NCBI RefSeq assembly: GCF_004022265.1
Contig: NZ_SAVB01000005.1
Coordinates: 1-64,000 of the forward strand
Length of the DNA: 64,000 nt
Direction: 5' to 3'
Source: Paenirhodobacter ferrireducens
GTDB lineage: Bacteria > Pseudomonadota > Alphaproteobacteria > Rhodobacterales > Rhodobacteraceae
The translations under genes and the position numbers were made by a program. This document shows positions 26,273-40,348 of the stretch, in pieces; the first letter of the stretch is position 1, and every line of letters begins with the position of its first letter. The notes under the pieces were generated by a model. That model was not told the origin of the DNA and searched no databases. It was given only the letters and a program-made list of their open reading frames with translations.

Positions 26273-26890
26273 ATGCGCATGAAATCAGTCACCGACATCG
26301 CCAAGGAAATCGTCGCCCGCGAGGGCGGCTATGTGAAGGACCCCGACGATCCCGGCGGGGCCACGAAATACGGCGTGACGCTTGCCACGATGCGCCGGCT
26401 CGGCATCGACCTCGACCGCGACGGTGTGGTCAGCGAGCGCGACGTGAAACTGCTGACCCCCGCGCAGGCGGTGCAGATCTATGTGCGCCATTACTTCGAA
26501 ACGCCGCATCTTGGCGAGCTGCCCGAGGCGGTGCAGCCTTCAGTCTTCGACATGCAGGTGAACGCCGGCGACAATGCGGTGAAGATCCTGCAGCGGCTGC
26601 TGAACCGGATGGGGCAGGCGGTCGCGGTCGACGGGCAGGTCGGGCCGCAGACGATTGCCGCCGCGCGCCGCGCCGCCGCCCCCGATCCGGGGCTCTTCGC
26701 CGACGCCTACGGCATTGCCCGGCGCACCTATTATTACGACCTCGCCGCCGCCCGCCCGGCCTCGCGCAAATATGCGACGACCACGGCGGGCACCAAGGGC
26801 GGCTGGATACTGCGCGCCGAGGAGTTCATCTCGCCGCGCTTCCACCTGAGCCCGGCACAGCACAAGGCACGGGTGGCGGCATGGGGCTGA
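26273..26890 (+). CDS. GH108 endolysin of gene-transfer-agent type
   Basis: 205 residues. The N-terminal GH108 muramidase domain carries the catalytic-Glu motif REGGYVKDPDDPGGATKYGV (Glu17 from the first ATG), and residues ~100-200 are a peptidoglycan-binding domain. There is no signal peptide, so export needs a holin, encoded by the next gene with a ten-base overlap. GH108 enzymes cleave glycan strands. This pair corresponds in family and order to the endolysin and holin that release the Rhodobacter capsulatus gene transfer agent (rcc00555-rcc00556, from memory). ATGs at 26273 and 26279 are both possible; GGGGA/GGGGGAG lies upstream. Confidence 0.9.
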   Translation: MRMKSVTDIAKEIVAREGGYVKDPDDPGGATKYGVTLATMRRLGIDLDRDGVVSERDVKLLTPAQAVQIYVRHYFETPHLGELPEAVQPSVFDMQVNAGDNAVKILQRLLNRMGQAVAVDGQVGPQTIAAARRAAAPDPGLFADAYGIARRTYYYDLAAARPASRKYATTTAGTKGGWILRAEEFISPRFHLSPAQHKARVAAWG

Positions 26891-27378
26891 TCGGGCGGAT
26901 CCTTGGCGGGCCGGCCGCGACCACGGCTCTCGGCACCGCGGTGACGCATGTCGCCGAGGTGTTCACCGTCAACGCGACGAAGAAGATGGAGGCCGAGGCC
27001 GAGGCCTATCGCGCGGCCCTCGACGAGCACGGGGCCGAGTTCCGATATGCCAGGGCGGGCCTCTTCGACCGCATCGTGAACGGGCTGAACCGGCTGCCGC
27101 GGCCGATGCTGGCGCTCGGCACGCTCGGGCTCTTCGTCTATGCGATGCTCGATCCCGCCGGCTTCGCACAGCGCATGGTCGGGCTGAACTATGTGCCCGA
27201 GCCGCTGTGGTGGCTGCTGGGGGCGATCGTCAGCTTCTATTTCGGCGCGCGCGAGGCCTATTATCTGCGCCACCGCGCGACGCCCGCGCCCACTCCGGCC
27301 CCTGTCGAGGCGGACGAGAACCCGGCGCTCGCCGAGCTGATGGCGAAGGGGGCGGTGGCCGAGGTCCCGGCGGGCTGA
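26881..27378 (+). CDS. Gene-transfer-agent-type holin
   Basis: 165 residues matching the GTA_holin_3TM group. An N-terminal amphipathic, partly hydrophobic stretch (~1-30) is followed by a charged helix (KKMEAEAEAYRAALDEHG), clear membrane spans at ~75-91 and ~107-124, the sequence FYFGAREAYYLRH, and a Pro/Ala/Glu-rich cytoplasmic tail. It would open the inner membrane to let the co-encoded endolysin reach peptidoglycan. The reading frame starts ten bases before the endolysin stop, so the two are translationally coupled. No phage structural gene is nearby. It converges on arginase with a three-base gap. Confidence 0.88.
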   Translation: MGLIGRILGGPAATTALGTAVTHVAEVFTVNATKKMEAEAEAYRAALDEHGAEFRYARAGLFDRIVNGLNRLPRPMLALGTLGLFVYAMLDPAGFAQRMVGLNYVPEPLWWLLGAIVSFYFGAREAYYLRHRATPAPTPAPVEADENPALAELMAKGAVAEVPAG

Positions 27379-27381
27379 TCC

Positions 27382-28305
27382 TCAGAACGAGCGGGTGGGC
27401 CGGTCGAAGACCTTCCGGCCCATCAGCGAGCCGACCAGATCGACCATCAGCTTCGCGGTGCGGCCGCGCTCGTCGAGGAAGGGGTTCAGCTCGACGAGAT
27501 CGAGCGAGGTGACGAGCTCCGATTCGTGCAACAGCTCCATCACCAGATGCGCCTCGCGGAAGGTGGCGCCGCCCGGCACCGTGGTGCCGACAGCAGGCGC
27601 GATCGCCGGGTCGAGGAAATCGACGTCGAGCGAGACATGCAGCAGCCCGTTCGCCGCCCGCACCCGGTCGAGGAATTCGTGCAAAGGCGCGCCGAAGCCG
27701 CGCTCGTCCAGGACCCGCATGTCGGCGATCTCGATCTCCTCGGGGATCAGCGCGGATTTCTCCGCCGGATCGACCGAGCGGATGCCGAGCATCGCGATCC
27801 GCTCGCCGGGCACCGGCGCGGGGAAGGGCGGGAACGGGGCAAAGCCCGGCCGGCCGGCGATATAGGCGACGGGCGTGCCGTGCAGATTGCCCGAAACCGT
27901 GCTTTCCGGGGTGTGGAAATCGGTATGCGCGTCAAGCCAGAGCACGAAGAGCGGCCGGCCTGCCTTCTTCGCATGGGCGGCCATGCCGGCGACCGAGCCG
28001 AGCGACAGCGAATGATCGCCGCCGAGAAAGACCGGCATCCCCTCGGCCGCCGCAGCCTCGCCCGCGCGCGCGAGCGCCTCGGTCCAGGCAAGGGTCTCGG
28101 CCAGATGATGCACGGCCGGGTTCGGATGGGGCAGGGGCGCGCAGGGGGCAATCGCCACGTCGCCGCGGTCGATCACCTTGTGGCCAAGCTCCTCGATCGC
28201 CGTGGCGATGCCGGCGACGCGATAGGCCGCCGGGCCCATCAGGGCGCCGGCGCGTTTCTGTCCGCTGTCCACGGGCGCGCCGATCAGGATGCAGGTCTGG
28301 GCCAT
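27382..28305 (-). CDS. Arginase
   Basis: 307 residues. Arginase hydrolyses L-arginine to ornithine and urea at a dinuclear manganese site. The ligand motifs are GGDHSLSLG near 100, WLDAHTDFHTP near 124 and SLDVDFLDPAIAPAVGT near 225, and SGNLHGTPVA is the substrate loop of arginases rather than agmatinases. AAGGAG precedes the ATG at 28305. metG lies upstream on the same strand, separated by a large palindromic element, so arginase is probably expressed separately. It converges on the holin gene. Confidence 0.93.
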   Translation of the reverse strand: MAQTCILIGAPVDSGQKRAGALMGPAAYRVAGIATAIEELGHKVIDRGDVAIAPCAPLPHPNPAVHHLAETLAWTEALARAGEAAAAEGMPVFLGGDHSLSLGSVAGMAAHAKKAGRPLFVLWLDAHTDFHTPESTVSGNLHGTPVAYIAGRPGFAPFPPFPAPVPGERIAMLGIRSVDPAEKSALIPEEIEIADMRVLDERGFGAPLHEFLDRVRAANGLLHVSLDVDFLDPAIAPAVGTTVPGGATFREAHLVMELLHESELVTSLDLVELNPFLDERGRTAKLMVDLVGSLMGRKVFDRPTRSF

Positions 28306-30291: not shown

Positions 30292-30309
30292 CTGTCATGC
30301 CACGGTCAT
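30292..30309 (+). promoter_or_regulatory. Near-consensus PhoB box upstream of the ABC ATPase gene
   Basis: CTGTCAT-GCCA-CGGTCAT matches the Pho box CTGTCAT-N4-CTGTCAT in 13 of 14 positions. TAGGCG begins ten bases after the box, where a -10 element is expected in Pho promoters. The ATPase start is 40 bases downstream. Confidence 0.72.
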
Positions 30310-30349
30310 CTTGCGGATGTAGGCGCCGCCCCGAACGGAAGGAACGGGA

Positions 30350-31438
30350 ATGGCCAGCATCGAGACCTCGCACCTGCGGCTTGCCTTCGGGGCGACACAT
30401 GCCGTCGACGGCATCACCATGGAGGTGCCCTCGGGCGCCTTCTTCGCGCTGCTCGGCCCCTCGGGCTGCGGCAAGACCACGTTGCTGCGCCTGATCGCCG
30501 GGCTCGAGCGGCCCGATGCCGGCGCCATCCGCATCGCGGGCGAGCAGGTGGCGGGGCCCGGGCGCTTCATCGAGCCGGGCGCGCGCGGGCTTGGCATGGT
30601 GTTTCAGTCCTACGCCCTTTGGCCGCAGATGACGGTGGCGGGCAACGTGGCCTTCGGGCTGAACCGGCTGCCCGCGGCCGAGCGTGCGCGCCGGGTCGAG
30701 GAGGCGCTTTCTACCGTGGGCCTTGCCCATGCCGCCGGGCGGCGTCCGCATGAGCTGTCGGGCGGGCAGCGGCAGCGCGTGGCGCTTGCCCGCAGCCTTG
30801 CCGCGCGGCCGGCGCTCATCCTGCTCGACGAGCCGCTGGCCAACCTCGATGCGCATCTGCGCCAGTCGATGCTGGCCGAGTTCCGCCGCATCCACCGCGC
30901 CTCGGGCACCACCTTCGTCTTCGTCACCCATGACCAGAACGAGGCGATGGCGATCGCGAGCCTTGTGGGCGTGATGGACCGCGGCCGGATGGAGCAGATC
31001 GCCCCGCCCGAGGTGCTGTTCGACCGCCCGGCGACGCCGATGGTGGCGCGCTTCGTCGGCAATGGCCGGACGCTGCCGGTGACGGCACTCGCGGCGCAGG
31101 GCGGGCGGGTGAAGCTGCGGCTGGGATCGCGGCTTCTGTCGCTGCCCGGCGATGCGCCGCCCGGCCCGGCCTGGCTGTGCCTGCGCCCGCGCGATCTGTC
31201 GCTTGCGGCCGGCACGGCGGATCTGTCGGCGCGGGTGATCGACCAGCGCTTCGAGGGCGGCGAATATGTGCTTGCCTGCCTGCCCGAGGGGCTTGATCTG
31301 CCCGAACCGCTCGAGCTGCGCAGCCGTGCGGCGGTGGCGCCGGGCACGCTCGTCGGGTTGCAGCTGCGCGGCGGCTGGGTCCTGCCGCGCGAGGAGCTGG
31401 CGCCCGAAACCGCGTCCGCCGAGCCGGCCTTCGCCTGA
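30350..31438 (+). CDS. ABC importer ATPase (FbpC/PotA-like)
   Basis: 362 residues. Walker [10 protein letters not shown] at 36-44, Q-loop [10 protein letters not shown], signature LSGGQRQR at 136-143, Walker [13 protein letters not shown] at 157-168, H-loop VTHDQNEAM. The C-terminal ~110 residues form a TOBE-type domain that may sense ligand or regulators. This ATPase would power the fused permease encoded at 34132 with the binding protein at 33150. GGAAGGAACGGGA precedes the ATG. It starts an operon with the MBL hydrolase (TGATG overlap) and a histidine phosphatase, behind a PhoB box. The FbpC/PotA-like class transports iron, polyamines or phosphorylated compounds; the context favours the last. 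Confidence 0.93.
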
Positions 31439-32517
31439 TGCCGTCTCTCATCGCGATCTCGGGCTTCGATGCGAAGGGGCCCGCCTGTTTCCTGCTTGAA
31501 CTTTCCGGCCGGCGGTTCCTGCTCGACCTCGGCACCGGGCCCGATGCCGGGCGGATGCCTGATCTGGCGGGGGTGGGGCGCGTCGATGCGGTGCTGATCT
31601 CGCACGGCCACCCCGACCACATCGGGGCGCTGTCCCTGCTTGGTCAGATCGGCCTGCCGCCGGTCTTTGCCACCGCGCCGGTCACGGCGCTGTCGCCGGC
31701 GGTCGCGGCGGCTGCGGGCGGGTTGTTGCCGGTGCGGGGCGCGGTGCTGGGCGTGCCCATCGAGACCGGCCCCTCGGGCCATGCGCCGGGGGCGGTGTGG
31801 ATGCGGATCGGCGGCGAAGACGGGCTTCTTTATACCGGCGATCTGTCGGTCGAGGGCAGCCTCTGGCCCTGCGCGACGCCGCCCACGGCCCGCGCCGCGG
31901 TGCTGGATGCAAGCTATGGCGCGGCGGACGAGGCCTTGCCCGATCAGCGCGCGGCAGTGCTGGCGCTTGCCGCCGAGGGGCCGCTTCTGCTGCCCGCCCC
32001 GGCCGCGGGCCGTGGGCTCGAGATGGCGCGGGTCTTCCTCGAGGCCGGGCACGAGGTCTTCCTCTGCCCCGCGCATCGGCGTGTTGCCGCGGTGATGCAG
32101 GCCTTTCCGGGCTGGCTCGCGCCGGGTGGTGCGGCGGCGCTCGCGCAGCTTTTGGCGGCGACCCGCCCGCTTGGCCCCGAGGCGCCCGCGTGTGGCGTGA
32201 TGATCGCCGCCGGGCCGAATGCCGAGGGCGGTGTGGCGGCACGGCTTGCCGCGCGCTTTGCCCAGACCGGCGAGTCGCAAATCGTCTTCACCGGGCATCT
32301 GGGCGTCGCGACCCCGGCCGAGGTGCTGACCCGCGCTGGCCGGGCCGCGTTCCTGCGCTGGAACGTGCACCCGCCGCTTGCCACCACCCGCGCGCTTCTC
32401 GACGCCATCGCCCCCGCGCAGGCGATGGCGGCCTTCACCCCGGCCGCGGGCCGGCGCGCGCTGGCCGCCGCGCTGCCTGCTGCCCCCCTTGCCGAAACTG
32501 CGGAGCTGCACTGGTGA
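31438..32517 (+). CDS. MBL-fold hydrolase, beta-CASP-like
   Basis: 359 residues without a signal peptide, so cytoplasmic. The metal-binding SHGHPDHIG at 55-63 and YTGDLSVEG are metallo-beta-lactamase motifs. The rest, with [19 protein letters not shown], the IVFTGHL strand and [18 protein letters not shown], resembles the beta-CASP insertion and C-terminal histidine of nucleases and phosphodiesterases of that group. The start overlaps the ATPase stop by one base, and its own stop overlaps the phosphatase start. In a phosphate-regulated importer operon a phosphodiesterase role on the imported compound is a reasonable inference, but the substrate is unknown and an RNase-like role is possible. 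Confidence 0.82.
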
Positions 32518-33077
32518 TCCTGCCCTTCGACGCCCCCTTCCTGTTCCTGCGCCATGGCGAGACCGCGGCGAATGCCGCCGACCTCATTGCCGGCGCAATG
32601 GACCTGCCGCTGACCCCCACCGGCCGGGCGCAGGCACGCGCCGCGGCGCAGACCCTTGCGGCGCTGCCCGCGGCCGAGCGACCGGCGACGATCTGGTGCT
32701 CGCCGCTCGCCCGGGCCCGCGAGACGGCGGCGCCGGTCGCTGCCCGTCTTGGCCTGCCGGTGCGGCTTCATGCCGGGCTTTCCGAGCGGAACTGGGGCAT
32801 CTGGGAGGGCGCGCCACGCGCCACGCTGCGCCGCGACGAGACCCCGGCGGGCGGCGAGGGGCCGCTCGATTTCCGTGCCCGGATCCGCGCCGCGCTCGTT
32901 GGGCTCGATGGCCGCACTCCGGTGCTGATCGTCGCGCATTCGGGCGTGGCGCGCGAACTCCATGCGCTGATCGGCGCGGGCGCCTTCCGCCGGCCGCTGA
33001 ACGGCGAGGTCTCGCGCTGGTCGCCCGCCCCCGACGGGCGCTGGCACGAAAGACCGCTCGCCGACACGGAACTGTAA
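32514..33077 (+). CDS. Histidine phosphatase (phosphoglycerate mutase-like)
   Basis: 187 residues with GTG start in a GTGA overlap with the MBL gene. The catalytic RHG motif LRHGETAAN (Arg13-His14-Gly15) and the second histidine in VAHSGVARE (about 139) define the branch-1 histidine phosphatases. SPLARARETAAPVA and LSERNWGIWEG are usual for phosphatases of broad specificity. It has no signal peptide. As the third gene of the PhoB-box operon it could free inorganic phosphate from the monoester left by the MBL enzyme. The assignment as a phosphatase rather than a mutase rests on length and context. Confidence 0.87.
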   Translation: MILPFDAPFLFLRHGETAANAADLIAGAMDLPLTPTGRAQARAAAQTLAALPAAERPATIWCSPLARARETAAPVAARLGLPVRLHAGLSERNWGIWEGAPRATLRRDETPAGGEGPLDFRARIRAALVGLDGRTPVLIVAHSGVARELHALIGAGAFRRPLNGEVSRWSPAPDGRWHERPLADTEL

Positions 33078-33082
33078 AGGCG

Positions 33083-33100
33083 CTGTCACCCCGCTGTCGT
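33083..33100 (+). promoter_or_regulatory. Near-consensus PhoB box upstream of the binding-protein gene
   Basis: CTGTCAC-CCCG-CTGTCGT matches CTGTCAT-N4-CTGTCAT in 12 of 14 positions with the exact 11-base repeat period. TAGCCC begins ten bases after the box, the same offset as at 30320. It lies only six bases after the phosphatase stop and 50 before the binding-protein ATG. Confidence 0.7.
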
Positions 33101-33149
33101 ATCGCGGCGCTAGCCCACGCCCAGTTTCAAAGATCAGGGATACCCAACC

Positions 33150-34139
33150 ATGACGCTCCTGCGCCGCCTCGCCCTCGGGCTCCTCACCTCCACCGCGCTC
33201 GCCACCGGCGCGCTGGCCCAGGCCGGAGGCACGATCACCGTCTACACCTCGCAGCCGAGCGACCAGATGGCCGCCGTCGTCGAAGCCTTCAACAAGGACC
33301 ACCCGGAGATCACCGTCGAGGTCTTCCGCACCGGCACGACCGAGCTGATGTCGAAGCTGCAGGCGGAGTTTGCCGCGGGCAGCAGCCCGGCCGACGTGAT
33401 GCTGATCGCCGATGCCGTGGCGATGACCCAGCTGAAGAACGACGGCCGTCTTTACGCCTATGACAACGCGCCGCTGGCCGGCATTCCGGCGGCAGTCGTC
33501 GACCCCGACCACACCTTCTTCGGCACCAAGCTGATCACCACCGGCATCGTCTACAACACCACGCTGGTGAAACAGGCGCCGACCTCCTGGGCCGACCTCG
33601 AGAAACCCGAGATCGCGGCGCAGACGATCATGCCGAGCCCGCTCTATTCCGGCGCGGCGGTGATCCATGTCGGCACCATGGTGCAGCAGCCCGAATTCGG
33701 CTGGCCCTATTACGAGACGCTGGCGAAGAACGGCGCGGTCGCGGGCCAGGGCAACGGCACCGTGCTCGAGGCCGTGGCCCGCGGCGAGAAGGCCTATGGC
33801 ATCATCATCGAATACATGGCGATGAACGCCAAGGCGAAGGGCTCGCCCGTCGATTTCGTCTTCCCGAAGGAAGGCGTCTCGTCGATCACCCAGCCGGTCG
33901 CGATCCTGAAGGACAGCGACAACATCGAGGCGGCGAAGGTTTTCGTCGACTGGGAACTCGGCCGTGCGGCGCAGGAACAGTCGGCCGCGCAGGGCTATTT
34001 CCCGATCCTCGAGGGCGTGGCCCAGCCCGCGGGCTATCCCGACCCCGCCTCGCTGAAGATCCTGTCGGCCGATCCGGCGAAGATGCTCGCCGCCGACAAG
34101 GAAACGAAAGAGACCTTCTCGGATCTCTTCGGTGGCTGA
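33150..34139 (+). CDS. Periplasmic substrate-binding protein (FbpA/AfuA-like)
   Basis: 329 residues with a signal peptide (MTLLRRLALGLLTSTALATG, cleaved after ALA near 23). The mature part begins GGTITVYTSQPSDQMAAVV, typical of the iron/hexose-phosphate/phosphonate class of binding proteins. VFRTGTTELMSKLQAEFAAG and ADVMLIADAVAM line the ligand cleft. The tyrosine ligands of true ferric-binding proteins are not obvious, which agrees with an organic phosphate ligand. AGGGA precedes the ATG. It overlaps the permease gene by eight bases and is preceded by its own PhoB box, so phosphate limitation probably induces it. Confidence 0.9.
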   Translation: MTLLRRLALGLLTSTALATGALAQAGGTITVYTSQPSDQMAAVVEAFNKDHPEITVEVFRTGTTELMSKLQAEFAAGSSPADVMLIADAVAMTQLKNDGRLYAYDNAPLAGIPAAVVDPDHTFFGTKLITTGIVYNTTLVKQAPTSWADLEKPEIAAQTIMPSPLYSGAAVIHVGTMVQQPEFGWPYYETLAKNGAVAGQGNGTVLEAVARGEKAYGIIIEYMAMNAKAKGSPVDFVFPKEGVSSITQPVAILKDSDNIEAAKVFVDWELGRAAQEQSAAQGYFPILEGVAQPAGYPDPASLKILSADPAKMLAADKETKETFSDLFGG

Positions 34140-35865
34140 TCTGACGGCCTCTGCTGCGCGCGCAGGTTTGCGCGCGCGCCTTCCGGGCGGTGACGGTCTC
34201 GTCATCGCCCTGATTGCCCTTTACGTCCTGGGTCTTGGCCTGTGGCCGCTGGCGCGGCTGCTGCTCGAGGCCTTCGGGCCCGACGACGCCGGCCGCCCCC
34301 TTGGCCTGATCCGCGAGGCGCTTTTCAGCCGCGCGGCAAGGGCGGCGCTGGCGAACACGCTCGCCGCCTCGGCCGGATCGGTCGTCGTTTCCGTTACGCT
34401 CGGCACCGCGCTGGCGCTGGCGCTCGGGCTGATGCGGCTGCCGGGGCGGGTGGCGATGACCTTCCTCGCGCTCGCGCCGATGCTGATCCCGTCGCAGATC
34501 ATGGCGCTCGCCTGGATCGAGCTTTTCGGGTCGTCCTCGCCGATCCTTGCGCCGCTGGGCCTTGCCCCCGGGGCGGGCGCGCGCAATCCGCTTTATTCGG
34601 GCGCCGGCGTCGCCTGGCTGATGGGGATCGAGCACATGCCGCTCGTCTTTCTCGCCGTGCGCGCGGCGCTGGGCGCGGTGCCCTCGGATCTGGTCGAGGC
34701 GGCGCGGATCGCGGGCGCGGGCCCGATGCGCATCGTCGCGCGGGTGATCGCGCCGCTCTGCCTGCCGCAGATCCTGGCCGGCGCGATCCTCGCCTTCGCG
34801 GCGGCGGTCGGCAATTTCGGCGTGCCCGCACTTCTGGGCATCCCGGGCCGCTTCCCGATGCTGACGACGCTGATCTATCAGCGGCTGAATGGCTTCGGCC
34901 CGCAGGTGCTCGGTCAGGTCGCGGTGCTGGCGCTGATGCTGATCGGGCTGGCCGGGCTGGCGCTTCTGGCCCGCAGCGCGCTGATCCGCCGCCTCTCGGT
35001 GCCGGTGGCCGCGGGGCGGCCCTTCGCGGGCTTTGATCCGGGGCGCGGGCGCGGGGGGGCGCTGGCGGCGCTCTGGGCCGTGCTCGGGGTGCTGCTGATC
35101 GCGCCGATCGCGGCGCTTCTCGGCACGGCGCTGGTGCCGGCGCTTGGTATGCGGCTGACGGCCGAGACGGTGACGCTCGCGAATGTCACGCAGACCCTCG
35201 CCGATCCGGTGATCCGCCGCGCCTTTGCGAATTCGCTGGGCCTGTCGCTGAGTGCGGCGGCGCTCTCGGCGCTGGTGGCGCTGCCCTTCGCCTGGTTCGC
35301 GCAGGTCGCCCGCGAGTCGCTTCTGCGCCGGCTCGACACGCTCGCCGACGCGCCCTTCGTGGTGCCTGGAACGGTGCTGGCGCTGGCGATGATCCTCGTC
35401 TTCCTGCCGCCGCTGCCGGGGCTGGGCGTCTCGGTCTACGGCACGCCGGTGATCCTGCTTTTCGCCTATCTCGCGCGCTTCCTGCCGCTGGTGTTGCGTC
35501 CGGTGGGGGGCGTCGCGCAGGCGATGGAGCCCGCGCTCGACGAGGCGGCGCGGATCGCCGGCGCCCCCGCGCTGCGCCGCATCGCGCGGATCTTCACGCC
35601 GCTTGCGGCGCCGGCCGCCGCTGCGGGGGCGGTGCTGGTGGTGATGACCGCTTTCAACGAGCTCACGCTCTCGGCACTGTTGTGGTCGGCCGGGACCGAG
35701 ACCGTGGGGGTGATGATCTTCGCGCTGCAACAGCAGGGCAACTCGACCGGGGCGGCGGCGCTCTCGGTGCTGTCGCTCGCTCTGGTGCTGGCGCTGGCAC
35801 TTCTGACCGACCGCATCGCGCGCCGCTCGGCCCCCTGGGTGCTGCCCTGGCGCGGCGGCGTCTGA
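34132..35865 (+). CDS. Fused ABC permease (FbpB-type, two membrane domains)
   Basis: 577 residues made of two homologous permease halves, each with about six membrane spans. The cytoplasmic coupling loops are EAARIAGAGPMRIVARVIAP in the first half and EAARIAGAPALRRIARIFTP in the second, both EAA motifs that touch the ATPase. Fused permeases of this kind belong to the FbpB/AfuB group. The GTG start lies inside the end of the binding-protein gene (eight-base overlap). With the genes at 30350 and 33150 it makes a complete importer. Short GC-rich inverted repeats follow the stop codon. Confidence 0.92.
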   Translation: MADLTASAARAGLRARLPGGDGLVIALIALYVLGLGLWPLARLLLEAFGPDDAGRPLGLIREALFSRAARAALANTLAASAGSVVVSVTLGTALALALGLMRLPGRVAMTFLALAPMLIPSQIMALAWIELFGSSSPILAPLGLAPGAGARNPLYSGAGVAWLMGIEHMPLVFLAVRAALGAVPSDLVEAARIAGAGPMRIVARVIAPLCLPQILAGAILAFAAAVGNFGVPALLGIPGRFPMLTTLIYQRLNGFGPQVLGQVAVLALMLIGLAGLALLARSALIRRLSVPVAAGRPFAGFDPGRGRGGALAALWAVLGVLLIAPIAALLGTALVPALGMRLTAETVTLANVTQTLADPVIRRAFANSLGLSLSAAALSALVALPFAWFAQVARESLLRRLDTLADAPFVVPGTVLALAMILVFLPPLPGLGVSVYGTPVILLFAYLARFLPLVLRPVGGVAQAMEPALDEAARIAGAPALRRIARIFTPLAAPAAAAGAVLVVMTAFNELTLSALLWSAGTETVGVMIFALQQQGNSTGAAALSVLSLALVLALALLTDRIARRSAPWVLPWRGGV

Positions 35866-36342: not shown

Positions 36343-37173
36343 GTGATCCACCCGTTCAAGACCCTCGCCGCGCTTGGCCTTGCCGCCGTGCTCGGCCTTG
36401 CCGCCCCCCTCGCCGCAACCGCCGGCTCGCCCGAAGAGGGCTGGGCGGGCGTGCAGGCCGCGGGCAAGCTGCGCTGCGGCGCCGCCGTCTTCCCGCCCTA
36501 TGTGATGCGCGACCCGGTCACCGGCGAATACAGCGGCTTCTTCGCCGATCTGTGCCGCGAGTTCGGCGAGGAAGTGCTGAACGTGCCGGTCGAATTCGTC
36601 GACACCACCTGGGACAACATCGTCGCCGGGCTGCAGGCCGGCAAATGGGACCTGTCGCTCGCGCTGAACCGCACGCCGACCCGCGCACTCGCCATAGCCT
36701 TCTCGGACCCGGCCGTGCCCTACGAGATCACGCTCCTTTACAACAAGGACAACCCGAAGATCCCGGCGGGGGCGAAGAGCCTGGCCGATCTCGACAAGGA
36801 AGACGTCACCATCGCCGTCGTCTCGGGCACCGCGATGGACAAGTCGATCTCGCCGCTGGTGAAGACCGCGAAGATCGTGCGCCTTCCGTCCTCGGACGAG
36901 GCGCGCCTGGCGGTGATGTCGCGCCGCGCCGATGTGCTGGCCGACCCGTCCGACACCAACCGGCTGTTCATCGCCGCGAACAAGGACTGGGCCGTCGATC
37001 TGGCGCCCGAACCCGCCATCGCCAAGCAGGGCATCGGCTTCGGCCTGAACGCCGGCTTCCCGGCCAAGGACATCGACGCGCTGAACATCTTCATCGAGGA
37101 GAAGGTCGCCACCGGCCACGTCGAGGCGCTGGTCGAGAAATCGGTGCAGGAGGTTCTGGCCGAGGGCCAGTGA
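36343..37173 (+). CDS. Polar amino-acid ABC transporter binding protein (family 3)
   Basis: 276 residues. GTG start at 36343 behind GGGAG. The signal peptide ends near residue 27 (AAPLAATAG). The mature protein follows the SBP_bac_3 pattern: LRCGAAVFPPYVMRDPVTGE, YSGFFADLCREF, WDNIVAGLQAGKWDLSLA and LNRTPTRALAIAFSDP for the ligand pocket. It captures a polar amino acid in the periplasm. ATPase and two permeases follow (37239-39357), giving a complete importer. The adjacent D-amino-acid dehydrogenase and ornithine-cyclodeaminase-family genes suggest a catabolic ligand. Confidence 0.92.
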   Translation: MIHPFKTLAALGLAAVLGLAAPLAATAGSPEEGWAGVQAAGKLRCGAAVFPPYVMRDPVTGEYSGFFADLCREFGEEVLNVPVEFVDTTWDNIVAGLQAGKWDLSLALNRTPTRALAIAFSDPAVPYEITLLYNKDNPKIPAGAKSLADLDKEDVTIAVVSGTAMDKSISPLVKTAKIVRLPSSDEARLAVMSRRADVLADPSDTNRLFIAANKDWAVDLAPEPAIAKQGIGFGLNAGFPAKDIDALNIFIEEKVATGHVEALVEKSVQEVLAEGQ

Positions 37174-37238
37174 GCCCCACCCAAAACCGGCGGGCGGGGG
37201 CAGACCTCCGCCCGCCCCTCTGCACGAAGGCACGGACG

Positions 37239-38000
37239 ATGGCTCAGGACAAGCTCCTCAAAATTCACAACCTGCACAAATCCTATGGTGATCTGGAAAT
37301 CTTCAAGGGCCTGACGCTCTCGATGGACCGCGGCGACCGGCTGGTCATCATCGGTCCCTCGGGCGGCGGCAAGTCGACGCTTCTGCGCATCGTCATGGGG
37401 CTCGAGGACATCGTCGGCGGCGACATCTATATGGACGGCAAGCCCTATATCCTGCGCGACGGGGCAAAGACGAAGATCGACCGCAAGTTGCAGGCGCGCG
37501 TCGGCATGGTGTTCCAGCACTACACGCTGTTCCCGCATCTCGACATCCTGCGCAACCTGACCCTTGCCCCGGTGAAGACCCGCGGCATGTCGCGCGCCGA
37601 GGCCGAGGAAAAGGCGATGGGGCTGCTGACCCGCTTCGGGCTGGATGCGAAGGCCCACGCCTATCCCTCGCAGCTGTCGGGCGGGCAGAAGCAGCGCGTC
37701 GCGATCGCCCGTGCGCTGATGCTCGATCCCGATCTGCTGCTGTTCGACGAGGTGACCTCGGCGCTCGACCCGGAACTCGTGGCCGAGGTCGAGGCGGTGA
37801 TGATGGAGCTGGCCGAGGCCGGCATGCCGATGATGATCGTCACCCATGACATGCATTTCGCCCGCAACATCGCCAGCCGCGTGGTCTTTGCCGCCGGCGG
37901 CGTGGTGGTCGAGGACGGCCCGCCCGAACAGGTGCTCGACGCCCCGCAGGTCGCCCGCACCCGCGAATTCGTCGAGCGCGTCTTCGCGAAGAAGAGGTGA
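37239..38000 (+). CDS. Polar amino-acid ABC transporter ATPase
   Basis: 253 residues. Walker A GPSGGGKSTLL at 39-49, Q-loop VFQHYTLFPHLD, signature [16 protein letters not shown], Walker B LLLFDEVTSALDPEL, and switch histidine VTHDMHFARN. It is typical of GlnQ/HisP-like ATPases, except that an extra loop (YILRDGAKTKIDRKLQA) sits before the Q-loop, as in several family members. GAAGG lies upstream of the ATG at 37239. It follows the binding protein by 65 bases and precedes the first permease by seven. Confidence 0.93.
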   Translation: MAQDKLLKIHNLHKSYGDLEIFKGLTLSMDRGDRLVIIGPSGGGKSTLLRIVMGLEDIVGGDIYMDGKPYILRDGAKTKIDRKLQARVGMVFQHYTLFPHLDILRNLTLAPVKTRGMSRAEAEEKAMGLLTRFGLDAKAHAYPSQLSGGQKQRVAIARALMLDPDLLLFDEVTSALDPELVAEVEAVMMELAEAGMPMMIVTHDMHFARNIASRVVFAAGGVVVEDGPPEQVLDAPQVARTREFVERVFAKKR

Positions 38001-38007
38001 GGGCGCG

Positions 38008-38676
38008 ATGAGCTACGATCTGCAGTTCTTCTACGTCTGGCAGAACCTCGACAAGCTCGGGCAGGGGCTTGTGGTCTCGCTCGAGCTCACGGGGCTTGCG
38101 AACCTGATCGGGCTGACGCTGGGCTTTGGCGTCGCGCTGCTTCTGCGCGCCAAAAGCGCGCTGCTGCGCGCGCCCGCCGCGGCGATGGTCGAGGTCTTTC
38201 GCTGCACCCCGGTGCTGGTGCAGGTGGTGTGGTTCTTCTACTGCGTGCCGATCCTGTTCAACCTGTTCATCGACCCGATGGTGATGGGGGTACTGGCGCT
38301 TGGGGTGAACCTTGCCGCCTTCAACGCCGAGGGCTATCGCGCCGCGATCCAGTCCGTCCCGCGCGAGCAATATGATGCCTGCGCGGCGCTTGGCCTGACC
38401 GGCTGGACCCGGATCCGGCACGTGATCCTGCCGCATGCCCTGCGCGCCGCGCTGCCGGTGCTGATGACGAATGGCATCACCATCTTCCAGCAAAGCGCGC
38501 TGGTCGCGCTCGTGGCGATTCCGGACCTGATGTATGCGGGCAAGATGCTCGCCACCGAGACCTATCGCCCGATCGAGACCTATACCGTCGTCGCCGCGAT
38601 CTATTTCGCGATCTCGGCGCCGGTCTCGCTGATCGTGCAGCGCATCGAGGCGCGGTTCGACCGCGTCCAGGCCTGA
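38008..38676 (+). CDS. Polar amino-acid ABC transporter permease 1
   Basis: 222 residues, HisM/GlnP-type, with about five membrane spans. The family motif FRCTPVLVQVVWFFYC and the cytoplasmic EAA-like loop SVPREQYDACAALGLTGW are clear. I chose the ATG at 38008 because GAGG precedes it and it gives the usual N-terminus; the frame is open upstream inside the ATPase gene. It forms a heterodimer with the next gene product, given their similar length and shared motifs. Confidence 0.93.
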   Translation: MSYDLQFFYVWQNLDKLGQGLVVSLELTGLANLIGLTLGFGVALLLRAKSALLRAPAAAMVEVFRCTPVLVQVVWFFYCVPILFNLFIDPMVMGVLALGVNLAAFNAEGYRAAIQSVPREQYDACAALGLTGWTRIRHVILPHALRAALPVLMTNGITIFQQSALVALVAIPDLMYAGKMLATETYRPIETYTVVAAIYFAISAPVSLIVQRIEARFDRVQA

Positions 38677-38688
38677 GGAGGCATTGCG

Positions 38689-39357
38689 ATGATGCATTTC
38701 GACCCCATGGTCCCGTTCAAGTACTGGGACGCGCTGCTGATCGGGCTGTGGATGAGCCTGCGGCTGACGCTGATCTGCCTGGCCCTCGGCATCGCGCTCG
38801 GCTTCCTCACCTCGCAGGCGCGGCGGTCGCGGTTCATGCCGCTGCGGGCGCTCGCCACCTTCTATGTCGAGCTGTTCCGCGGCACGCCGGTGCTGATCCA
38901 GCTGTTCTGGATCTTCTACTGCCTGCCGCTGCTTCTGGGCTTCGAGCCGGGCAACTTCGCCTCGGCGGTGGTGGCGCTGACGCTTTATGCCGGGGCGATC
39001 ACCTCGGAAACCTTCCGCGCCAGCCTGAAGTCGATCCCGCGCGAGCAATATGACACCTGCCGCGCGCTCGGCATCACCGGGATGAGCCTCGCGCTCTGGG
39101 TGGTGCTGCCGCAGGCGCTCCTGCGGGCGATCCCGACGCTTTTATCGAACGCGGTCGCACTCTTCAAGGAAAGTGCGCTGATCTCGGCGGTCGGCATGGC
39201 GGATCTGATGTTCATCGGCTCCTCGATCTCGAACCGCACCGGGCGCCCGGTCGAGATGCTGACGGCGATCGCGGTGATCTATTTCGCCGTGGCCTTCCCG
39301 CTGACCCGCATCGTCGGCCGCGTCGAGGCGCGGATCCTGCGTCGCCTTGCTGTCTGA
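38689..39357 (+). CDS. Polar amino-acid ABC transporter permease 2
   Basis: 222 residues, the same length as its partner. It has the motif FRGTPVLIQLFWIFYCLP, the EAA-like loop SIPREQYDTCRALGITGM and about five membrane spans. GAGGAGG lies upstream of the ATG at 38689, and a second ATG follows directly. It begins 12 bases after permease 1 and closes the four-gene importer operon. The LysR gene begins 70 bases later on the same strand and may be read through. Confidence 0.93.
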   Translation: MMHFDPMVPFKYWDALLIGLWMSLRLTLICLALGIALGFLTSQARRSRFMPLRALATFYVELFRGTPVLIQLFWIFYCLPLLLGFEPGNFASAVVALTLYAGAITSETFRASLKSIPREQYDTCRALGITGMSLALWVVLPQALLRAIPTLLSNAVALFKESALISAVGMADLMFIGSSISNRTGRPVEMLTAIAVIYFAVAFPLTRIVGRVEARILRRLAV

Positions 39358-39427
39358 GCGGCAGAAAATGCTTGTCTCGGCGCGGGGGGCGGGCGAAAGC
39401 AGGCGCGATCTGCTCGGAGCCCTGCTG

Positions 39428-40348
39428 ATGAAAACCCCGCGCCGTTTTCTGCCGTCGCTGTCGCTGCTGCAGGCCTTCGAGGCCGCGGCCCGGCTGCAGT
39501 CGATCACCGGCGCCGCGCAGGAGCTGTCGCTGACGCAAAGCGCCGTGTCGCGGCAGATCCGGGCGCTCGAGGAACAGCTCGGCACCTGCCTGTTCCACCG
39601 CGAGAAGCAGACGATCCGGCTGACGCTGGGCGGGGCCTCCTATGCGCGCGAGGTGCGCGAGGCATTGCAGAAGATCTCGCAGGCCTCGATGAACCTGCGT
39701 GCGAACCCGCATGGCGGCACGCTGTCGCTGGCCATCCTGCCCACCTTCGGCACGCGCTGGCTGGCGCCGCGGCTGCCGGGGTTTCTGGCGGCGAACCCGG
39801 GCATCACCATCAACCTCGTGACCCGGCTGACGCAGTTCGACTTCCGCAACGAGGCGGTCGATGCCGCGATCCATTTCGGCCGCACCGACTGGCCGGGCGC
39901 CGATTGCGTCTATCTGATGGGCGAGGACGTGGTGCCGGCCTGCGCGCCGGAGGTGCTGGAACGCTATCGCTTCGGCACGGCGGCCGATCTGCGCACGGCG
40001 CCGCTTCTGCACCTGACCTCGCGCCCCGACGCGTGGGAGCGGTATTTCCTGCGCCATGACGTCGATGCGCAGAACGTGCATGGGATGCTCTTCGACCAGT
40101 TCGCCACGGCGGCGCAGGCGGCCGCGGCGGGGCTGGGCGTGGCGCTGCTGCCAACCTTCCTCATCGACGACGAGATCGCGGCGGGGCGGCTGGTGCGCGC
40201 GCTCGATGCGCCGATGCGCTCGGAAGAGGCCTATTACCTGTGCTGGCCGCACGATCAGGACAGCTACGAGCCGCTGCAGGTGTTCTGCAAATGGCTGACG
40301 GCCGAGACCCGCGCCTTCGAGGCGGCGCGGGCCGCTGCGGCGGGCTGA
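39428..40348 (+). CDS. LysR-family regulator (GcvA-like)
   Basis: 306 residues from the ATG at 39428, which has GGAG ten bases upstream and gives the usual start MKTPRRFLPSLSLLQAFE. The helix-turn-helix is ELSLTQSAVSRQIRALEEQLG. The effector domain is of the GcvA group (LSLAILPTFGTRWLAPRLPGF and GLGVALLPTFLIDDEI). Upstream in-frame ATG/TTG starts (39368 and 39347) are possible but less likely. It lies between the amino-acid importer and the minus-strand catabolic genes, whose stop codon directly abuts its own, so it probably regulates one or both. Confidence 0.9.
   Translation: MKTPRRFLPSLSLLQAFEAAARLQSITGAAQELSLTQSAVSRQIRALEEQLGTCLFHREKQTIRLTLGGASYAREVREALQKISQASMNLRANPHGGTLSLAILPTFGTRWLAPRLPGFLAANPGITINLVTRLTQFDFRNEAVDAAIHFGRTDWPGADCVYLMGEDVVPACAPEVLERYRFGTAADLRTAPLLHLTSRPDAWERYFLRHDVDAQNVHGMLFDQFATAAQAAAAGLGVALLPTFLIDDEIAAGRLVRALDAPMRSEEAYYLCWPHDQDSYEPLQVFCKWLTAETRAFEAARAAAAG

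Follow-up and report, generated by a model that had tools for sequence, protein, structure and literature searches.

We analysed a 64,000-nucleotide stretch of the Paenirhodobacter ferrireducens genome (contig NZ_SAVB01000005.1, positions 1 to 64,000; here called the window), in which five open reading frames (ORFs) encode an ATP-binding cassette (ABC) importer and two predicted hydrolases (Table 1). They form two gene sets, both on the forward strand: the ATPase, a metallo-beta-lactamase-fold (MBL) protein and a histidine phosphatase (30350-33077), followed by a substrate-binding protein (SBP) and a fused permease (33150-35865). The gene junctions are TGATG, GTGA and an 8-base overlap, suggesting that both units are translationally coupled. 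Read by eye, the SBP has a signal-like N-terminus, which the MBL protein and the phosphatase lack. The best NCBIfam relatives of the transporter parts are PhnS2, PhnT2 and PhnU2, all far under their cut-offs, and none of the five proteins reached a cut-off among the NCBIfam models listed (for the ATPase, the best 25 of 184 matches). Judged from their sequences, the five genes resemble a toolkit for phosphate starvation, which would import a phosphorus compound and strip its phosphate inside the cell.

Table 1. Genes and putative promoter elements of the five-gene locus, in window positions
Feature	Position	Strand	Basis or remark
Pho box 1, CTGTCAT-N4-CGGTCAT, CTGTCATGCCACGGTCAT	30292..30309	+	13/14 consensus; upstream of the ATPase-MBL-phosphatase unit
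-10 candidate TAGGCG	30320..30325	+	first base is the 11th after Pho box 1
ABC transporter ATPase, PhnT2/PotA-like	30350..31438	+	NCBIfam PhnT2 285.7 bits, cut-off 457.7
Beta-CASP metallo-beta-lactamase-fold hydrolase, predicted intracellular phosphodiesterase/nuclease	31438..32517	+	fold model, motifs
Histidine phosphatase branch 1, predicted intracellular phosphomonoesterase, GTG start	32514..33077	+	family, catalytic residues
Pho box 2, three tandem 11-mers CTGTAAA/CTGTCAC/CTGTCGT	33072..33100	+	17/21; overlaps the phosphatase stop codon
-10 candidate TAGCCC	33111..33116	+	first base is the 11th after Pho box 2
Periplasmic binding protein (SBP), FbpA/AfuA/PhnS fold, signal-peptide-like start	33150..34139	+	family, fold
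Fused two-domain ABC permease, PhnU2-like, GTG start	34132..35865	+	family matches

The original prediction, made from the letters of this DNA and their translations, had placed near-consensus Pho boxes at 30292 and 33083, each with a TAG ten bases downstream. Both boxes are present. The first matches the consensus at 13 of 14 positions and the second (33083-33100, CTGTCACCCCGCTGTCGT) at 12 of 14, with CTGTAAA at 33072 adding a third 11-mer that extends it to 17/21. The TAG trinucleotides are found at 30320 and 33111, in hexamers that are otherwise weak as -10 elements. Two window sites scored at least 12/14, against 0.12 expected, a number reached by 2 of 300 dinucleotide shuffles, and one triple box scored at least 17/21, against 0.003 expected from shuffled windows. 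At the laxer score of 11/14 the window was not significant, with 5 sites observed and shuffle means of 1.99 (reached by 9 of 100) and 2.21 (reached by 25 of 300). The whole genome carries 17 sites with at most two mismatches, compared with 3 for the reversed pattern, and two of the 17 are the boxes of this locus. For many of the remaining 15, the gene that contains or follows the site has no evident phosphate link, and the pattern by itself therefore lacks specificity. Only three genomic sites have a single mismatch. One is Pho box 1, another lies upstream of a gene whose product begins like what we take to be a secreted 5'-nucleotidase, and the third precedes an ORF without an evident phosphate link. 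A pstS-like gene before pstC has a box scoring 11/14, and a few kilobases beyond it lies a PhoB gene above its family cut-off (TIGR02154, 344.9 bits versus 296.2). Three features of Pho-regulon promoters were thus found: 7-mers at 11-base spacing, the -10 position and PhoB in the genome.

Similar boxes occur upstream of the corresponding genes in several genera. They score 14/14 in Maritalea (L039) and in Falsirhodobacter (L255, in an operon without the MBL gene), 13/14 in Duffyella (no MBL), 12/14 in Enterobacter, 11/14 in Sinorhizobium meliloti and Phyllobacterium (both without MBL) and in Phaeobacter, and 10/14 in Alloyangia. No good box (best score 8-9) was found in Salmonella (L251), Kosakonia (L253), Thermus (L248) or Pannonibacter (L254). 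A score of at least 11/14 was reached ahead of 12 of the 37 SBP genes of MBL loci, 5 of 12 ATPase genes and 4 of the 20 SBP genes of MBL-free loci, counts that include near-duplicate loci and regions anchored on BLAST starts, which may miss some true starts. Permuted motifs gave means of 0.52, 0.19 and 0.22 in these three sets and reached the observed counts in 1, 0 and 1 of 300 permutations; the opposite strand gave 0, 1 and 0 sites. One permuted motif exceeded the true box in MBL loci (14/37 versus 12/37) and one tied with it in MBL-free loci. Among all 420 arrangements of the motif, those reaching the true count were TTGTCAC, the shifts TCTGTCA and TGTCATC, and CTGTTAC, all of them similar to the Pho box or identical to it but for a shift by one base. 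The spacing to the -10 candidate is also conserved. Of 57 SBP-upstream regions, 35 have a box score of at least 10/14, and in 22 of these a TA starts 11 bases past the box, at its 11th following base; at any other position from 1 to 20 it does so in at most 3. This conserved position supports the remark on -10 spacing in the original prediction.

The second gene of the window encodes what appears to be a compact, active beta-CASP enzyme rather than a generic MBL protein, because its fold model and its conserved metal and beta-CASP residues agree. The AlphaFold2 model (mean pLDDT of 89.3, from a 6-row alignment) has the full beta-CASP fold, as predicted beforehand, and its Foldseek match to TTHA0252 has an E-value of 3.2e-21 and a query TM score of 0.80. 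Yeast Ysh1, archaeal KH-CPSF and CPSF-73 entries also rank at the top (E-values of 3e-21 upward, query TM scores of about 0.8). The residues of the HxHxDH motif and of the beta-CASP region (H56, H58, D60, H61, H115, D135, D157 and H311) are kept in 42-43 of 43 rows. The best 50 of 1021 Foldseek matches consist of TTHA0252, CPSF, Integrator, archaeal CPSF/FttA, RNase J and type VII CRISPR entries. An identity as a PhnP-like cyclic phosphodiesterase was considered and set aside, since these 50 matches are other proteins. Whole fold and motifs are therefore common to the window protein and to beta-CASP nucleases such as TTHA0252 and CPSF-73. The window protein differs in its length (359 residues, compared with 431 in TTHA0252), in its identity of at most 22% within those 50 matches, and in the ties of its family to an importer, described below. 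The earlier assignment as a diesterase can thus be narrowed, on the fold model, to a putative enzyme of the beta-CASP nuclease type.

The MBL gene was searched for with a profile built from 13 relatives, some of which belong to loci later found by it. Of 295 genomes from the same family, 19 had it at an E-value of at most 1e-20. In all 19 loci (the window and L138-L155) it adjoins the SBP, permease, ATPase and a monoesterase gene, the latter encoding a histidine phosphatase in 16 and SurE in 3; a frame change interrupts the ATPase gene of L140. Such gene-order conservation had been named beforehand as something that the proposal depended on, and the MBL and phosphatase genes were indeed kept with the transporter. 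A sample across the class gave the MBL in 5 of 289 genomes, that of the window included. Of the other four loci, L156 has a dual-specificity-type phosphatase, L158 has a histidine phosphatase, L159 lies at a contig end, and L157 has the SBP and permease, with neither a recognised adjacent ATPase nor a monoesterase. The SBP profile matched 42 of the 295 family genomes, among them all 19 with the MBL. About 6-7 first-look candidates were scored per genome in each of these surveys (MBL in the family and across the class, SBP in the family), so that an absence is not firm. In a plasmid collection, the SBP was found at 1e-40 in 95 records and the MBL at 1e-20 in 25. A contig profile scan gave 76 loci, of which L038-L042 were used and the other 71 (E-values of 2e-16 or weaker) were dropped. 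No Escherichia coli genome gave a near-identical match to the Enterobacter operon.

Gene order varies among these loci, with the following main arrangements. The window represents type A (ATPase-MBL-phosphatase-SBP-permease), type B and the SurE type share the order SBP-permease-ATPase-MBL-phosphatase, and the dual-specificity type has ATPase-SBP-permease-MBL-phosphatase. The MBL was found (E-value below 1e-30) in only 6 of 17 other genomes of the window's genus, three with type A and three with type B, and the system is therefore patchy. In a tree of 63 SBP sequences (a quick tree, with SH-aLRT support only), the variants fell into separate clades, requiring one change each for type A, the SurE type and the dual-specificity type, and three each for type B and the MBL-free loci.

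The slot after the MBL gene is filled by different phosphatases. The histidine phosphatase of the window (PF00300, E-value of 6.4e-35) belongs to a set in which R13, H14, G15, R67 and E91 are kept in 31 of 31 rows. Four loci (L035, L147, L154 and L155) have SurE instead (PF01975, E-value of 8e-45), which is labelled 5'/3'-nucleotidase by its family name. Five have a dual-specificity-type or "protein phosphatase," identified by Pfam in L034 and L156 and by record annotation in L254, L257 and L261; the Pfam matches (DSPc, PTP-SAK) are weak, one of them having 27.3 bits versus a cut-off of 27. In 15 of 18 type-B loci a HAD_PNKP protein (PF25109, E-value of 2e-28 in L039), whose relatives in the Protein Data Bank are Pnkp1 and T4 polynucleotide kinase, is encoded beside the histidine phosphatase, as it is in Phaeobacter inhibens. 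In Halomonas PA16-9 this PNKP-type HAD was the only phosphatase found, in a record that also has split permease and regulator genes. Since the true substrate must suit every one of these unrelated enzymes, their interchange is an experiment of nature by which the chemistry can be tested. Beside the SurE variant, three of the four loci (L147, L154 and L155) also encode a recurring protein, which in L147, where it was tested, matches HAD_2 weakly. On pSymB of S. meliloti (L245:4920-10844), a related transporter with an 11/14 Pho box is followed by a 570-residue fusion of HAD (Hydrolase_3) and AAA domains, possibly a further phosphatase variant. On a Thermus thermophilus plasmid (L248), a distant SBP-permease-ATPase set without a good Pho box lies a few genes from SurE.

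The binding proteins of all variants share R60, G62, T63, S163, S167, G168 and N202 (63 of 63 rows) and K127 (62 of 63), a conservation suggesting one ligand class throughout. By sequence, the nearest ligand-bound relatives carry glucose-6-phosphate or pyridoxal phosphate (PLP); by fold alone, iron-binding proteins rank equally high. Ferric iron was marked down as a ligand because the FbpA-type positions H9 and Y196 correspond to P36 and M223 in an alignment with SfuA. The same alignment places the FbpA pair Tyr195-Tyr196 at Y222-M223, and position 222 is phenylalanine in 33 of the 63 rows; the FbpA numbering is the one we presume for its iron ligands (H9 and Tyr195-Tyr196). An AfuA-type sugar phosphate was likewise marked down, since H205, D206 and E229 of AfuA align to Y222, M223 and I246 (with an inferred numbering offset), and so was 2-aminoethylphosphonate (AEP), the cut-offs of AepX/PhnS2 (152.9 versus 392.75) and PhnS (41.4 versus 395.3) lying well above the scores. 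On these alignments and scores, iron, AEP and AfuA-type sugar phosphates are disfavoured as ligands, an outcome that supports the original prediction.

UgpBAEC-UgpQ is a Pho-regulated ABC importer of glycerophosphodiesters with a cytoplasmic phosphodiesterase. By analogy, its working logic would be like that proposed here, with different parts. The window ATPase is under the UgpC-type cut-off (NF008653, 268.7 versus 432 bits), neither UgpB nor GDPD is among the families listed for the window proteins, and the five-gene set adds a monoesterase. By the feature tested, the UgpC-type cut-off, the set is not an Ugp member. The solved SBPs nearest by sequence include AfuA, of the sugar-phosphate importer AfuABC, and the PLP importer protein P5PA. 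Both were described with co-purified ligands, which are organophosphates, and the excerpted descriptions mention neither a Pho box nor companion enzymes (PMC4546632; PMC8427247). According to the excerpted text of PMC8316502, synthesis of three AEP transporters (AepXVW, AepSTU and PhnS) is phosphate-insensitive, AepXVW being the main one in Pi-sensitive growth; the AEP-importer models PhnS2, PhnT2 and PhnU2 are the nearest to the three transporter parts of the window, but their cut-offs all lie far above the scores. By the features tested, the set has the AfuA, FbpA and AEP families as relatives without belonging to any of them. In S. meliloti, the available part of PMC8829014 describes SMc04316-04317 as an operon predicted to transport iron, which has a Pho box and responds to phosphate stress with high induction. 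It resembles the present system by description only, and the S. meliloti match found here is on pSymB. Pho-regulon proteins of Phaeobacter MED193 are tabulated in PMC10132767, and the part of PMC3596328 available held nothing specific to the five-gene set. No description of the gene set turned up in searches of an open-licence library, outside which most subscription papers fall.

We consider it probable that the locus encodes a Pho-regulon importer of an intact organophosphate, in which the beta-CASP enzyme opens a phosphodiester and the monoesterase releases phosphate in the cytoplasm. PhoB would bind both boxes in low phosphate, as the sites and their conservation suggest. The SBP would capture the organophosphate and the ABC parts would import it intact, as expected from their families. 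The fold and motifs of the beta-CASP enzyme point to cleavage of a phosphodiester, possibly cyclic, in the cytoplasm, after which the co-encoded monoesterase would free the phosphate, the order of the two steps and their cellular site being those we infer. The substrate may tentatively be seen as a nucleotide-type compound, e.g., a simple nucleoside phosphodiester (2',3'-cyclic or another), which is favoured by the nuclease fold, SurE and the PNKP-type 3'-phosphatase. A dedicated starvation route, in which nucleotide-type phosphodiesters (e.g., 2',3'-cyclic nucleotides from RNA decay) are imported intact and digested inside by a beta-CASP enzyme recruited from RNA processing and an interchangeable 3'/5'-nucleotidase, is conceivable, if somewhat doubtful. 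If true, it would contradict the usual view, as worded in the excerpted text of PMC8289736, that nucleotides have to lose their phosphate outside the cell before they can be taken up. More generally, the importer would give Alphaproteobacteria and some Gammaproteobacteria a further organic-phosphorus uptake route within their Pho regulon. A transporter clade now labelled "iron ABC transporter" would be renamed, and a nuclease fold would be seen to have become a catabolic enzyme.

Several observations weigh against an importer with built-in phosphodiester and monoester hydrolysis. No MBL match was found in 23 of the 42 SBP-bearing genomes, and 20 of these, fetched for inspection, had no MBL or phosphatase of these kinds nearby (some being cut by contig ends), so the transporter can do without the enzymes. 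The ATPase of these 20 loci is convergent with the SBP and permease in 14, on the same strand in 2 and was not found adjacent in 4. In Falsirhodobacter the MBL gene lies about 40 kb away from the SBP gene, and on the OyaliB plasmid of Rhizobium leguminosarum (L259) its neighbours are an RpiR/SIS regulator and two ATPases belonging to a different ABC type, where it may serve a second importer. No recognised monoesterase was found in the Azospirillum loci L260 and L033, nor in L157 (G440), and the PNKP-type HAD was not found in the window's own genome. Box scores are below 10 in 15 of 37 SBP-upstream regions of MBL loci (including three of the four SurE loci, L147, L154 and L155, as well as L151 and L153) and in 7 of 20 regions of MBL-free loci. 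The phosphate site of P5PA is only partly kept: T63, S167 and G168 match Thr37, Ser147 and Gly148, and Thr149 and Ser183 are replaced by A169 and G201. The neighbouring regulators suggest a sugar or sugar-phosphate product and not specifically a nucleotide. The original reading is supported in part, by Pho-box control in several genera, by the linkage of the MBL and phosphatase genes to the transporter, and by the lack of the tested iron and AEP features in the SBP. Its notion of a single locus holds for the 19 MBL loci of the family and does not extend to every genome with the transporter.

The regulators speak for a functional analogue of Ugp that imports glycerophosphodiesters or polyol or sugar phosphodiesters. 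A GlpR-like DeoR regulator is encoded in 14 of 18 type-B loci, a SorC-type regulator in all four SurE loci, a LacI regulator in three of the five dual-specificity loci (all but L156 were inspected for it, and the annotation of L034 shows none) and an RpiR regulator beside some other variants, all of which favour a glycerol or sugar product. Four MBL-free relatives also adjoin carbohydrate-type permeases, the one tested being nearest to UgpA (119.6 versus a cut-off of 335). The GlpR-like protein of L039 is nevertheless under its cut-off (180.6 bits versus 331), a beta-CASP enzyme stands in place of a GDPD, and the family names of SurE and the PNKP-type phosphatase mark both as enzymes of nucleotide ends. 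We regard such an analogue as rather unlikely, and take the same view of a glycerol- or sugar-phosphodiester, our second candidate, as the substrate.

An importer of phosphomonoesters (sugar phosphates or nucleotides) would need only the phosphatase, leaving the MBL protein a side role such as clearing cyclic by-products. The monoesters bound by the closest ligand-bound SBP relatives and the SBP genomes without an MBL match speak for it. The retention of the MBL in Azospirillum L260 without a recognised monoesterase, the overlap of the window MBL gene with its neighbours and the absence of the three AfuA sugar-binding residues make it unlikely. If the beta-CASP protein processed RNA and had no more than the operon in common with the importer, this would fit its best 50 fold matches, which are RNA- or DNA-processing proteins; its linkage to the importer in all 19 family loci, and across several gene orders, makes this very improbable. 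Automatic annotation would have a ferric-iron, polyamine or AEP importer with bystander enzymes, the public records using "Iron ABC transporter permease," Fe(3+)-binding, PotA and PhnV as labels, and the SBP does have an FbpA-type fold. Given P36 and M223 at the iron-ligand positions, the PhnS2 score far below its cut-off and the upstream Pho boxes, we attach hardly any probability to this annotation.

The surroundings of the locus in the window hold other genes. The gene divergent from it reads like what is presumably a methionyl-tRNA synthetase, and an arginase-family protein (PF00491) is encoded on that same strand at 27382-28305 (reverse). At 26273-27378, a glycosyl hydrolase 108 endolysin-type protein (PF05838) is followed by a gene-transfer-agent-type holin with three transmembrane segments (PF11351), forming a gene-transfer-agent-like lysis pair. 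Directly downstream of the permease, at 36343-40348, are amino-acid-type ABC transporter genes and then a LysR regulator.

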